Under the pieces are notes generated by a model. That model saw nothing but the letters and a program-made list of their open reading frames with translations. It did not search any database and had not been told where the DNA came from. Both the position numbers and the translations under genes were made by a program. Shown one piece after another: positions 16,209 through 55,155 of a stretch of DNA of 64,000 nucleotides. Every line of letters starts with the position of its first letter. Position 1 is the stretch's first letter. The DNA is from Torymus aiolomorphi. Taxonomy: Eukaryota > Arthropoda > Insecta > Hymenoptera > Torymidae. Location: positions 160,457,297 to 160,521,296 of the forward strand of contig CM070874.1 of the NCBI GenBank assembly GCA_036365515.1, given 5' to 3'.

Positions 16209-16412
16209 ATCATATAAACATGGACTTATGCTGACACCAATGTATAAGACCACGTGACCTGTCTGCATAAGTGTAGTACCGTTTATACAAGTGTCTGCAC
16301 AAGTCTAGCGTGACTAAAGAAATAATCTCTCTACTTATGCTGACGTCTGCATAAGTCGGTCTCTGTCTGCATAAGTCTATTTAAATTTCGGAAAGTGTCT
16401 GCATAACTAGCG
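16209..16412 (+). repeat. Core-motif unit 1 (word TGTCTGCATAAGT)
   Basis: The invariant core TGACTAAAGAAATAAT is at 16311-16326. The unit-specific word TGTCTGCATAAGT or close variants occurs several times before and after the core, with inverted forms such as GACTTATGC. TA runs lie on both sides. It shares its word type with unit 11. Confidence 0.75.
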
Positions 16413-16454
16413 TTTCATATATTTATATATATATATATATATATATATAAAAAA

Positions 16455-16669
16455 ACTTGTATAACGTTAGTTCCCAGGACCCCATGTTACTGTATACCTA
16501 TACGTGACTAAAGAAATAATGTCTTTTATGGGGGCCGATGTCCTCAAAACTGACGTTAATCATATGTAGATTCAGGGACTGTCCCCAAAACTAACAAATG
16601 TCCCCGAAACCAACGTTAAACATCTGGAATGTCCTGGAAACTAACATAAAACATAAATATATATATATA
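16455..16669 (+). repeat. Core-motif unit 2 (word GTCCCCAAAACTAACG)
   Basis: The core is at 16505-16520. An inverted word AACGTTAGTTCCCAGGAC precedes it, and four forward variants follow (CTCAAAACTGACGTTAA, CCCAAAACTAAC, CCCGAAACCAACGTTAA, CCTGGAAACTAAC). The sequence around 16556-16590 is the uninterrupted counterpart of the site where the 17057-21109 transposon inserted into unit 4. Confidence 0.75.
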
Positions 16670-16676
16670 ACTTAGT

Positions 16677-16922
16677 ACACCGCTATACATTTCTTTTACC
16701 AGATTTATGGAGCCCTTTTATACACATGAGCATATTTATGGAGCCCGTTTTCTTTTATGGAGCCCGGGTCCCATAAAATATTCTTATACGGCGTTTATGG
16801 AGCCCGATCTAGAGTTTCTATACCCAGAGCGGGATTATTTCTTTAGTCACTTGTATACGGGAACTCTGGGCGTAGGTACTAATACACAGGGATGGGCTCC
16901 ATAAAGAGGTTAAGTGATAATT
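16677..16922 (-). repeat. Core-motif unit 3 (word GGGCTCCATAAA)
   Basis: Reverse-oriented near-copy of units 5 and 13. The core complement is at 16834-16849, flanked by CCCAGAG and CTCTGGG, which can pair. The word TTTATGGAGCCC occurs several times on one side and once inverted on the other. No conserved protein is encoded. Confidence 0.8.
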
Positions 16923-16962
16923 ATATATATATATATATATATATACAGTATATATATATATT

Positions 16963-17056
16963 TATGTTTTATGTTAGTTTCCAGGACATTCCAGATGTTT
17001 AACGTTGGTTTCGGGGACATTTGTTAGTTTTGGGGACAGTCCCTGAATCTACATAT
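16963..17056 (-). repeat. Core-motif unit 4, left part (split by transposon)
   Basis: This segment matches the end of unit 2 in reverse orientation (TTTCCAGGACATTCC, GGTTTCGGGGACATTTG, TTTTGGGGACAGTCCC). The rest of the unit, including the core complement at 21153-21168, resumes at 21110-21222, beyond the inserted 4 kb element. Confidence 0.8.
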
Positions 17057-51944: not shown

Positions 51945-54356
51945 GGGGACGTCCAGCAGAAACGGGCCACCGAGCGCGCGCGGTGCCTTTTTTCGCGTAA
52001 AAGGCGCTCTGTTTAACTCGCTCATAATTGTATGCTGCGTCTTTGAAAAAAAAAACCAAGGACCTATATCGATAGATTTTTTTCTGCTCTTTCCAATTGC
52101 GCCATTGTTTTTATTGCGAAACGCGTTCTTCTAGACGAAAACTCGAGTTGAATATTGAAAGCCATTTTTCTCAAAGTATATCATGTTTTTTTCCAAAATA
52201 AACTACACCATTGGAAAGTATAACTCTTAAGCTTCAAAACCCTATCTTGGAGAAGTTGGAGAAATAAAGGGTTTAAAAGTAACAACATGAAAAAGACAGC
52301 GCCGAGGGTTCGCGCGAGCCCCTCGCGCCCGTGCGTACGGTACGTTTAAGTGCACGCTCTATTCAATTTGCTAATAATCGTGTACGAAGTCTCTGAAAAA
52401 AGAACTAAGGACATATATCGATAGCTTTTTTCCTGCTCTTTCCAATGGTGCTATTATTTTTATTCCGAAATGCTTCCTTCTAGTTGAAAATTCCATTTGA
52501 ATGTTTAAACCCTATTTTCTCAATAAAATATCAGTCTTTTCTTCAAAATGAATTATATTCTTTAAAAGTACAAGTCTTAAACTATCAAATATTATATTTT
52601 TAAGTTGAAACATGAAAAGTTCAAAAATAGTAAGATCAAAAAGACAGCGGCTGCCCGAACTTTTTACGTTATGCTCAAGGGCGGATTAATAGACGCGATG
52701 TGCTATTTCGCCCTTTCTTTTTTGTAAATATAAAATGTTTTGTAACTTACAATGCCAATGCGTGGACATAATTTTATGGATGTAGTTGTAACAGTTAGTA
52801 TAATATTACAATGAACTTTGTTCATTTATATAACAAAATTTGAAAAACATAATATATTAAACATAAAAATATCCATGAACGCACTGAAAGCAGTGAAACA
52901 GAAATTTAAAATAACCTTATAGATTGTTTTATCTGGCATAACAATATTACCTTTTCCTTTAAATTCTAATTTTTTTTAATATTTTTGATTTTATAAGAAT
53001 TGTCCTTTTTGCGACATCCGCTTCTTTCTTTGTTTGAGTTTTAAGTACTTTTTCTTTTTTGATCGGTGGATATAATTGAGAATCTTCTGACGCTGAAAAT
53101 CTTTTAAGTTCTAACTTTTTGGCATCATTTAATAATTTAATACAATGAAACAATTGAGTTCCAGGTATTGTCTTAGCTGAGGCTAGCCTGTTTTGTAGCT
53201 TTTCTGTAGCCATTAAGTAATCGTCTTTTGATGAAAAAAAGCACTCAATATTTGTGAAATACTCAGTTGCCCATTTGTATAAATCTTGGAGCGTCAATAT
53301 ATAATTGTCAGATACTTTCCGTAAACTTTCTCGTCTGGCTTTGCTTTTCACGGGAGCACCTATTCCATCACATGCATTTTTTCCGTGGGCTGTTGCATGA
53401 AAATGCCACTCAGCATCAACAGCAAAATCATCATAATGATGAAGAATATTTTGGAAATTGCCTTTATTTTTAAAATGTTGCGCAGCTCCATCAGTAAAAT
53501 AAATAACTATTACAACTAGATCCACAAAATTATGTCCACGCATTGGCATTGTAAGTTGCAAAACATTTTATATTTACAAAAAAGAAAGGGCGAAATAGCA
53601 CATCGCTTGTTAATTAATCCGCCCTTGAGCATAGCGTAAAAAGTTCGGGCAGCCGCTGTCTTTTTGATCTTACTATTTTTGAACTTTTCATGTTTCAACT
53701 TAAAAATATAATATTTTATAGTTTAAGACTTGTACTTTTGAAGAATATAATTCATTTTGAAGAAAAGACTGATATTTTATTGAAGAAATAGAGTTTAAAC
53801 ATTCAAATGGAATTTTCAACTAGAAGGAAGCATTTCGGAATAAAAATAATAGCACCATTGGAAAGAGCAGGAAAAAAGCTATCGATATATGTCCTTAGTT
53901 CTTTTTTCAGAGACTTGGTACACGATTATTAGTGAATTGAATAGAGCATGCACTTAAACGTGCCGTACGCACGGGCGCGAGGGACTCGCGCGGACCCCTC
54001 GGCGCTGTTTTTTTCATGTTGTTACTTTTAAACCCTTTATTTCTCCAACTTCTCCAACATAGGGTTTTGAAGCTTAAGAGTTGTACTTTCCAACGGTGTA
54101 GTTTCTTTTGAAAAAAACATGATATACTTTGAGAAAAATGGCTTTCAATATTCAACTCGAGTTTTCGTTCGGAAGAACGCGTTTCGCAATAAAAACAATG
54201 GCGCAATTGGAAAGAGCAGGAAAAAATCTATCGACATAGGTCCTTGGTTTTTTTTCGAAGACGCAGCATACGATTATGAACGAGTTAAACAGAGCGCCTT
54301 TTACGCGAAAAAAGGTACCGCGCGCGCTCGGTGGCCCGTGTCTGCTGGACGCTCCC
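51945..54356 (-). mobile_element. DNA transposon F, deleted relative of D, ~850 bp terminal inverted repeats
   Basis: The ends read GGGGACGTCCAGCAGA at 51945 and its complement (with GGGAGCG) ending at 54356, each next to ATAT. The arms (about 51945-52790 and 53513-54356) match closely and make up most of the element. The ~720 bp centre holds the 3' half of a transposase of the same family as in transposon D. The arms themselves differ from those of D, so F is a related but separate family, reduced by internal deletion. Confidence 0.8.
52959..53561 (-). pseudogene. C-terminal part of a D-family transposase
   Basis: A 200-residue leftward frame carries IYFTDGAAQHFKNKGNFQNI, EWHFHATAHGKNACDGIGAP and LTLQDLYKWATEYF, closely parallel to residues ~163-235 of the transposase at 17472. 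The two upstream acidic motifs (DFAENY and IISDN in that copy) are missing. The first ~15 residues of the frame lie in the right inverted repeat, so the N-terminus is a fusion produced by the deletion. It ends in a basic Lys-rich tail. Not expected to be active. Confidence 0.75.
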
Positions 54357-54364
54357 ATATATAT

Positions 54365-54618
54365 AATATATACACTTATCGGGGTTTATGTATATTAGCC
54401 CAAGACTGTATATTAGTACCTACAGCCCAGAGATCCCTATGGCAAGTGACTAAAGAAATAATGGACCCTGGGGTTATAGACTCTAGGTCGGGCCGCATAA
54501 ACCCCTATATTCAGAAATATTATGAAGCTCGGGCTGCATAATCAAAATCGGGCTCGATAAACCCATATATATAAAAAAACGGGCTTTATAAACCCCTTTC
54601 GAGAAATGTGTGGGTGTA
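54365..54618 (+). repeat. Core-motif unit 12 (word CGGGCnnnATAAACCCC)
   Basis: GGGGTTTATGTATATTAGCCC precedes GCCCAGAG and the core (54447-54462). GGACCCTGGGG, GACTCTAGG and words CGGGCCGCATAAACCCC, CGGGCTGCATAAT, CGGGCTCGATAAACCC and CGGGCTTTATAAACCCC follow. Same type as unit 6, opposite orientation. Confidence 0.8.
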
Positions 54619-54647
54619 TATATATATATATATATATATATTTATAT

Positions 54648-54893
54648 ATATAATTATCACTTAACCCCTTTATGGAGCCCATCCCTGTATATTAGTACCT
54701 ACGCCCAGAGTTCCCGTATACAAGTCACTAAAGTAATAATCCCTCTCTGGGTATAGAAACTCTAGATCGGGCTCCATAAACGCCGTATAAGAATATTTTA
54801 TGGGACCCGGGCTCCATAAAAGAAAACGGGCTCCATAAATATGCTCATGTGTATAAAAGGGCTCCATAAATCTGGTAAAAGAAATGTATATAT
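54648..54893 (+). repeat. Core-motif unit 13 (word GGGCTCCATAAA)
   Basis: Near-copy of unit 5. The core carries two changes, TCACTAAAGTAATAAT (54725-54740), showing that the core can drift in a copy whose words stay intact. CCCAGAG and CTCTCTGGGTATAG flank it. Confidence 0.85.
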
Positions 54894-54904
54894 ATATATA
54901 TATA

Positions 54905-55155
54905 CACAAGTTTGTGGGTGAACCTGTTTTGGAGAGGTATAGTTCTTTTCTTCAGAGTTGCTGTATGTCATTGACTAAAGAAATAATGGACTCTGCAAAT
55001 ATAGACTCTAGAATCTGGCAAAAAAACTCTCCAAAACCGATTATATATACATTTCCCTTGTAAAAAACATCTTCAAAACCGGAGTAACTCTTGAAAATCG
55101 GAATATCCTACGTTGAAAAACTCGTCAAAACCGAGAAACGACATAAATATATATA
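54905..55155 (+). repeat. Core-motif unit 14 (word CTCCAAAACCG)
   Basis: The inverted word GTTTTGGAGAGG precedes CAGAGTTGCTGTATGTC and the core (54972-54987). GGACTCTGC, GACTCTAGA and forward words (CTCTCCAAAACCGA, ATCTTCAAAACCGG, CTCTTGAAAATCGG, CTCGTCAAAACCGA) follow. CAGAGT and ACTCTG can pair across the core. Confidence 0.8.

Follow-up and report, generated by a model that had tools for sequence, protein, structure and literature searches.

What are the short blocks of sequence that recur, around one and the same 16-nucleotide word, in the genome of the wasp Torymus aiolomorphi? A stretch of 64,000 nucleotides of contig CM070874.1 (assembly GCA_036365515.1, positions 160,457,297 to 160,521,296; hereafter the window) holds 14 such units, each with the core TGACTAAAGAAATAAT. 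As the sequence-only reading of this DNA had reported, the cores lie in both orientations and some of them are variants: 10 are exact, 1 has one mismatch and 3 have two mismatches. We propose that the units are short non-autonomous DNA transposons, probably Mutator-like, and that the family-specific repeats that they carry, called tags below, are putative transposase binding sites; we consider this interpretation reasonably probable. The units are real and occur throughout the genome, as a set of short DNA transposons rich in structure; the superfamily and the role of the core are proposed from sequence features.

Scanning the window for the core with up to 3 mismatches gave 16 matches, compared with 1.94 expected from shuffled sequence (maximum 5 in 100 shuffles); the matches at 12075 and 40185, with 3 mismatches each, were excluded from the unit count. 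In the whole genome (1.08 Gb, 21 contigs) the exact core occurs 12,541 times, against a single occurrence of the reversed control; with up to two mismatches there are 23,849 copies against 6,530 for the control, and the 22-mer formed by the core plus GACCCT is found 2,150 times against 0. With 12,541 exact copies the units do not stem from a local duplication, and an origin by local segmental duplication, which the sequence-only reading had set against its proposal of a genome-wide family, fails. The fixed core between TA repeats was borne out as well: in the window and 20 ten-kb loci, which were themselves picked for holding the core, 39 of the 42 TA-bounded segments of 130-420 bp contain it with at most 3 mismatches. 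The cores are clustered, since among the first 100 exact cores on contig C1, 25 of the 99 gaps measure 700 bp or less, compared with 1.1 expected and with at most 6 in 10,000 simulated runs. The core plus CCCT gave 0 matches among viral contigs, and the core strings had no match in open literature text.

The window lies on contig C2; every other stretch of the sample is from contig C1 and was selected through a core: 20 loci of ten kb and 40 of 0.9-2.9 kb around listed exact cores, 20 smaller stretches picked by core plus GACCCT, and one 4-kb stretch. Nearly all units were found through the core, so that its conservation is overstated. Clustering the flanks of the first 138 matches (at most 3 mismatches; window and loci L009 to L068) yielded 39 clusters, of which 17 have at least two members, and 32 family representatives were hand-picked for the tests of tags, spacing and core.

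We observed that the units are non-coding, about 200-350 bp long, usually inserted in (TA)n and often placed side by side in arrays without nesting. Each extends from one TA run to the next, some flanks being (TG)n or (CA)n instead, and length is constant within a family (232 bp in 7 of 8 rows of family A; 199 or 200 bp in the 10 uninterrupted rows of family C). From left to right, a unit consists of a short terminal stretch (12-21 bp for most of the families whose TA boundary is clear), an inverted tag, partly complementary arms around the core, the motif CYCT, the direct tags, a short stretch (7-25 bp in most families) and TA. The tag is specific to the family, and a unit has a single inverted copy of it close to the left end and, as a rule, four in direct orientation on the right; its letters are, for example, GGGCTCCATAAA in family A, GTCCCCAAAACTAAC in C, TCCTCAAAGTGCC in E, GTCCCAGAAATAACG in K10, CTCTTCAAAACCG in G and GTCCTGAAACATAGCG in IIa. 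The tags intergrade around CC..AAA, with an identity, at the best register, of 0.75 within a family and 0.52 between families.

The geometry of the right-hand tags is the strongest result of this analysis. Among the right arms of the 32 families, repeated 12-mers gave 165 pairs of family and spacing, compared with a mean of 15.5 in shuffled arms. With no spacing assumed beforehand, peaks appeared at 19-20, 31-32, 40-43, 50-52, 59-62 and 94 bp, with smaller ones at 72 and 91 bp; a spacing of 19 is common to 15 families and one of 32 to 13, while in none of 200 shuffles did more than 3 families have a spacing in common. The spacings show their greatest periodic power at 10.3-10.4 bp. When four sites were fitted, 23 of the 31 scored families (one of the 32 was too short) had them at 40-43, 19-20 and 31-33 bp, or about 4, 2 and 3 turns of DNA, with scores of 59-91 out of 96, compared with 51 at most for 92 shuffles of their arms. 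In type II families the array lies some 85-115 bp farther from the core. In the spacing and left-tag tests some arms overrun the unit (for instance D4 and D31) and were retained in the counts of 32 and 31, and the fit for F9a is in a register that differs from its tags. Such a conserved spacing points to protein-binding sites on double-stranded DNA: spaced at the pitch of the double helix, the bound proteins would be lined up on one face of DNA, which argues against sites acting in RNA. Telomerase-like copying of a single template tag was also considered and ruled out, the right copies having unrelated spacers.

For the left tag, in inverted orientation, a left 10-mer with at least two copies on the right was found in 23 of the 32 families, compared with 254 of 992 cross-family pairings; of the 23 array families, 16 have a left 16-mer that fits the right consensus at 11 letters or more, a count given without a null model. 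In unit C a subterminal inverted repeat is made up of the left tag and the final tag on the right, TGTATAACGTTAGTTCCCAGGAC lying opposite TGTTTTATGTTAGTTTCCAGGAC, and the A-prime type element at L020:4889-5128 has a 45-bp inverted pair with 3 mismatches (42/45), at its ends or at most 5 bp from them. The sequence-only reading had denied terminal inverted repeats to the units, which is wrong at the subterminal level. The ends of the element thus stand at a fixed distance from tags on either side.

We then consider the core itself. Each of its 16 positions carries 1.6-2.0 bits across the 32 families, whose units were collected by the core, while neighbouring bases carry 0.04-0.85 bits, except CYCT with 1.1-1.4 bits; this motif begins at most 3 bases after the core in 34 of the 36 units examined. 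The families might have split recently from one element, the core having no function and being merely unchanged so far. Collection by the core inflates its conservation, and the intergrading tags, 22 of 23 families being united by single linkage at 0.60 identity, probably do indicate a common ancestor. However, sampling of this kind inflates the bits of the core and not the sharpness of its edges, which fall at once to 0.20 bits at +1 and 0.15 at +2 and stand at 0.07-0.21 bits 8-14 bases upstream, and the core is present in nearly all the TA-bounded segments mentioned above regardless of family. We therefore hold descent without function to be very unlikely. The core would rather be an internal cis site, possibly within a dyad.

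The arms on its two sides bear on this dyad. In 27 families the duplex formed by a family's own arms has a mean energy of -15.6, compared with -12.9 for permuted arms, and 3 of 20,000 permutations were as low. (A similar test on the outer arms, -48.9 for own and -40.0 for permuted pairs, with 4 of 20,000 permutations as low and the own pairing best in 2 of 27 rows, was dominated by TA runs and was not used.) The sequence-only reading had described CCCAGAG..CTCTGGG, ATTAGTACCTAC and GACTCTAG as recurring around the core; they do so in some families, but others have different, partly complementary arms. A CCC..GGG hairpin after the core was likewise tried as a general feature, and by eye it does not hold for all families.

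A core between pairing arms recalls rolling-circle (HUH) elements, in which it would be a nick site in a hairpin loop and the tags would be iterons bound by Rep, either as in the origins of geminiviruses and circoviruses or as in Helentron relatives (mini-me, DINE-1). Indeed, the origins of CRESS (circular, Rep-encoding, single-stranded DNA) viruses combine an invariant loop with family-specific iterons, which is the layout of an invariant core plus family-specific tags seen here, and by eye several aberrant units (in L054, L064, L078, L085 and L033) have their breakpoint no more than about 20 bp from the core. We consider this explanation quite unlikely all the same: a family's own arm partner is the best of its row in just 2 of 27 families, breaks close to the core are in part what a collection of units made through it would show, and ends set by tags on both sides fit two-ended transposition. 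The mini-me and DINE-1 elements of flies are short, non-coding and associated with microsatellites, with subterminal inverted repeats, but they have fixed family ends, a rolling-circle origin and a hairpin near the 3' end, whereas the wasp units have ends that vary from family to family, at a set distance from the tags.

For units inside (TA)n a target duplication cannot be seen; a single paralogous empty site, observed by eye, is a repeat that carries unit C in L022 and, in L089, a long TA run and no unit. In L082 and L083 units stand between (CA)n and (TG)n in inverted order, which suggests that the insertion target may be alternating, self-complementary sequence. Type III elements (L010, L046, L032, L036 and L050/L052) have the exact core, tags GTACGACAGAT or CCGTCAGAT, different ends (GGC...) and a position outside TA runs. 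Three of the five are flanked by target duplications, of 10/10 in L036 and 9/10 in L032 and L046, an agreement (9/10 or better) that random 10-mers of the same loci reach with a chance of 0.001. Matches to the Mutator-like element (MULE) domain PF10551 are abundant in this genome, at least 150 having been scored from 338 candidates; 20 of these matches lie in open frames of at least 500 amino acids without a stop. Mutator-like elements make target duplications of the size seen in the three type III elements. It is because of these 9-10 bp duplications and of this abundance that we call the units Mutator-like.

The same transposon architecture, with tag-binding transposases, could belong to another superfamily of DNA transposons, such as Tc1/mariner, P, Merlin or the unclassified element at 51943-54350, from which our interpretation would differ in the superfamily only. 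TA is the target of Tc1/mariner as well; mariner-like elements adjoin several units, and the unclassified element also ends at TA beside units, in the window and in L021, L025 and L063, while the link to MULEs comes just from the type III duplications and from abundance. Against this, Tc1/mariner elements make a target duplication of 2 bp, with which the 9-10 bp duplications of the three core-bearing type III elements do not agree, and the nearest published layouts, as far as the parts of those reports available to us go, are derived from MULEs. We regard another superfamily as unlikely.

These layouts come from plants, although the sequence-only reading knew of no described family with this layout. 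According to the available part of the report on MuTAnT in Medicago truncatula, the elements are non-autonomous, 200-300 bp long, foldback and inserted in (TA)n, with a 4.9-kb MULE partner, 9-nt duplications for the few copies outside TA and empty sites averaging nine TA repeats (PMC4486113); the wasp units resemble them in size, (TA)n setting and foldback, and three of the five type III elements resemble the copies outside TA in having duplications of 9-10 bp. MuTAnT differs in being one plant family of two subfamilies with inverted repeats, for which that part of the text describes no cross-family core and no phased tag array (PMC4486113). SaTar elements of guayule and rice, as partly available, are many small MULE-like families in microsatellites, in un-nested arrays, with 10-bp duplications outside microsatellites and more than 20,000 copies in guayule (PMC5907723). 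These are the likenesses to the wasp units and, for the duplications, to three of the five type III elements; the differences are a size of 380-1120 bp, inverted repeats of 40-250 bp, arrays of unrelated elements and, in the available text, no report of a shared core (PMC5907723). The Ac-mMITEs of pineapple, Mutator-like miniature inverted-repeat transposable elements (MITEs), are described in the part available to us as (TA)n-flanked clusters, again as in the wasp, with 9/10-bp duplications outside microsatellites, which three of the five type III elements have too; they differ in forming two families alike in their terminal inverted repeats, and no conserved internal word is reported there (PMC8449440). 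MuTAnT, SaTar and Ac-mMITEs unite the features on which the Mutator-like reading is built, and they stand closer to the units than the fly mini-me elements that had been put forward as the nearest analogy.

Copies of irregular structure raise another alternative, namely a retroposed structured RNA, similar to a ribozyme or a short interspersed nuclear element, copied by the microsatellite-favouring Penelope-like elements of this genome. In L078 and L089 the left half of a unit with its core is joined to an apparently 5'-truncated Penelope-like element, and inverted and truncated pairs of units occur in L061, L080 and L086; Penelope-like elements carry hammerhead ribozymes and have a reported microsatellite bias. 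On the other side, tag spacing tracks the pitch of double-stranded DNA. Alignment showed 11 of the 13 rows of family C to be complete at either end, while the remaining two are the halves of a single split unit; in family B 7 of the 12 rows are complete; the A reference contained two units and the D4 reference contained TA, those rows being left unused, and the references other than C and B were faulty or tested mainly one end. In a listing of end-words those of K8 were short and several K8 rows misassigned, and its flank-class counts were not used. No tail was seen, and no ribozyme was among the Rfam matches: at gathering score the window gave one histone stem-loop only, and a lenient search of 12 loci gave 56 matches, for the most part to microRNA models and lying on TA repeats or the L061 inverted dimer. 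We thus find retroposition highly improbable, and the identity of the core with a ribozyme or riboswitch was rejected on these scans. Ownership of the core by Penelope in L078 was also rejected: in the 4-kb follow-up the apparently 5'-truncated Penelope lies directly after the core, and the right half of the unit was not seen.

Several observations weigh against a Mutator-like origin with tags as transposase sites. An autonomous element bearing these tags, ends or core was not found. Four MULE genes of the 150 (about 4.5 kb each with flanks) contained no core at up to 2 mismatches, and by eye no tag array was seen in flanks of this size; nor is a conserved internal word like the core described for MULE MITEs in the accessible parts of the literature examined. 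The outermost dozen or so bp differ among families, and only A-prime (L020) has a near-perfect terminal inverted repeat. The tags are not unrelated, as the linkage of 22 of 23 families indicates; 8 of the 31 scored families fail the array, seven of them with scores of 38-54 and the eighth, D4, with a score of 71 obtained on TA repeats and filtered out; and the left tag matches at only 8-10 of 16 letters in 7 of the 23 array families. Among type III elements, L010 and L050 have no target duplication. Finally, some copies are composite: L028 joins the left part of E to the right end of IIa, L026 consists of two families tail to tail, L064 has right-end tags to the left of the core, and inverted or foldback pairs are present in L061, L080 and L086. 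Such copies could result from template switching or from gap repair in the course of DNA transposition; other copying mechanisms also fit.

Other searches bear on the partner and on the number of ends. Nine pairs of TA-bounded inverted ends more than 520 bp apart, from a search of the window, 20 loci and L089, were considered as partners and set aside, being by eye mariner-like elements, other elements or known units. The type III end pattern gave 871 matches at up to 1 mismatch, compared with 0 for the control, and inspection by eye of the 100 positions listed showed no two opposite ends less than 10 kb apart. For the left end of A-prime there were 819 candidates, 40 of which were scored and gave at least 42 matches, on contigs C1-C5.

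In the mechanism that we propose for these Mutator-like units, a transposase would bind the tag, the left inverted copy and the last right direct copy marking the two ends of the element. The additional copies on the right, separated by about 4, 2 and 3 helical turns, would build an asymmetric, phased array of protein, comparable to the multi-site ends of some bacterial transposons. Families would arise as the letters of the tag drift in concert across all copies of a unit, which is what a parallel drift in the DNA-binding part of the transposase would lead one to expect; the geometry of the array and the 16-bp core would stay fixed. Core and CYCT, often between partly complementary arms, may be the internal cis site that every family needs. 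It could be an enhancer, for instance, to which a portion of the transposase common to the families, or else a single host or targeting factor, binds.

As a more tentative step, possible but in our judgment somewhat doubtful, the units could be described as a transposon lineage whose tags drift in concert while the core and the 4-2-3-turn array form a fixed 'chassis' for radiating transposases, the core serving as a common enhancer or targeting signal. We know of no such signal described for eukaryotic DNA transposons. New here are the core common to the families and the phased array. What is unusual, namely the helically spaced tags and the presence of the core across families with differing tags, is contained only in part in the sequence-only reading, which overlooked the tag layout. 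If the proposed mechanism is true, one genome records the joint change of a DNA-binding protein and its sites, the geometry of their complex can be read from sequence alone, and TA-targeted Mutator-type arrays, described in the available accounts from plants, extend to an animal. The core would also offer a single word for labelling these elements in repeat annotation.

In the window, the first cluster opens with unit 1 (family D, tag GTCTGCATAAGT; 16209..16421, + strand, core 16311-16326), unit 2 (family C, tag GTCCCCAAAACTAACG; 16454..16653, +, core 16505-16520) and unit 3 (family A, tag GGGCTCCATAAA; 16690..16921, -, core 16834-16849). Unit 4 belongs to family C; the block with a core at 21153-21168, given in the sequence-only reading as a unit of its own, does bear a core but is the left part (21109..21219, -) of one unit, which a 4-kb element at about 17059-21108 interrupts; the right half of the unit (16964..17058, -) is 100% identical to C positions 109-202. 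Unit 5 (family A; 22778..23009, +, core 22850-22865) displays the array in full, its left inverted tag (22794..22809, +) fitting the right-tag consensus at 13 of 16 letters and its right array (22890..22995, +) consisting of R1 (22890-22905), R2 (22930-22945), R3 (22949-22964) and R4 (22980-22995), with spacings of 40, 19 and 31 and a score of 82/96. Unit 6 (family B, tag GGGCTGCATAAACC; 23032..23262, -, core 23178-23193) and unit 7 (family E13, tag CTCCTCAAAGTGCC; 23319..23567, +, core 23380-23395 with 2 mismatches) follow, the right arm of the latter being below the qualifying array score.

The other units, all on the + strand, are unit 8 (family E, tag TCCTCAAAGTGCC; 47989..48205, core 48047-48062), unit 9 (family E48291, tag ATCCTCAAAAGT; 48237..48450, core 48291-48306 with C as its last base), unit 10 (family F, tag GTCCCGGAAATAACG; 50951..51186, core 51024-51039), unit 11 (family D6; 51205..51437, core 51317-51332 with 2 mismatches), unit 12 (family B; 54373..54608, core 54447-54462), unit 13 (family A; 54653..54884, core 54725-54740 with 2 mismatches) and unit 14 (family G, tag CTCCAAAACCG; 54905..55147, core 54972-54987, its ends read by eye).

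Outside the window, two loci contain palindromes. In L051, at about 190-800, a K10 unit by eye centres a palindrome of host DNA whose arms extend about 60 bp past the TA runs, and a similar TA-centred palindrome lies nearby in L086. In L079 (G000:C1:11267200-11268800) the repeat that contains an F-type unit is about 1 kb long; there, as near 11.77 Mb, successive cores are 978-1007 bp apart, and the unit has apparently joined a tandem array.

The window also holds other mobile elements. The 4-kb element inside the split C unit has long inverted ends, with CATATG near both junctions, and its frames at 17472-19160 (-) matched no Pfam family above cut-off. The unclassified, TA-flanked element at about 51943-54350 has long GC-rich inverted ends and a frame of 202 amino acids (52959-53567), with no Pfam match and with 41 homologues, those named among the ones listed being from Trichogramma kaykai and Eretmocerus hayati. 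Between 28 and 42 kb lie Maverick-like (Polinton) frames, which show an integrase core and, below cut-off, a match to DNA polymerase B. A Penelope-like copy sits among these frames, with a reverse transcriptase at 29674-31098 (RVT_1 above cut-off, GIY-YIG just below); the segment that follows it, at about 31322-31355, which from its motif we take to resemble a hammerhead ribozyme, had no Rfam match at gathering score. The histone 3' stem-loop found by Rfam lies at 25493-25537 (-), barely above gathering score, and adjoins AG/AC repeats.

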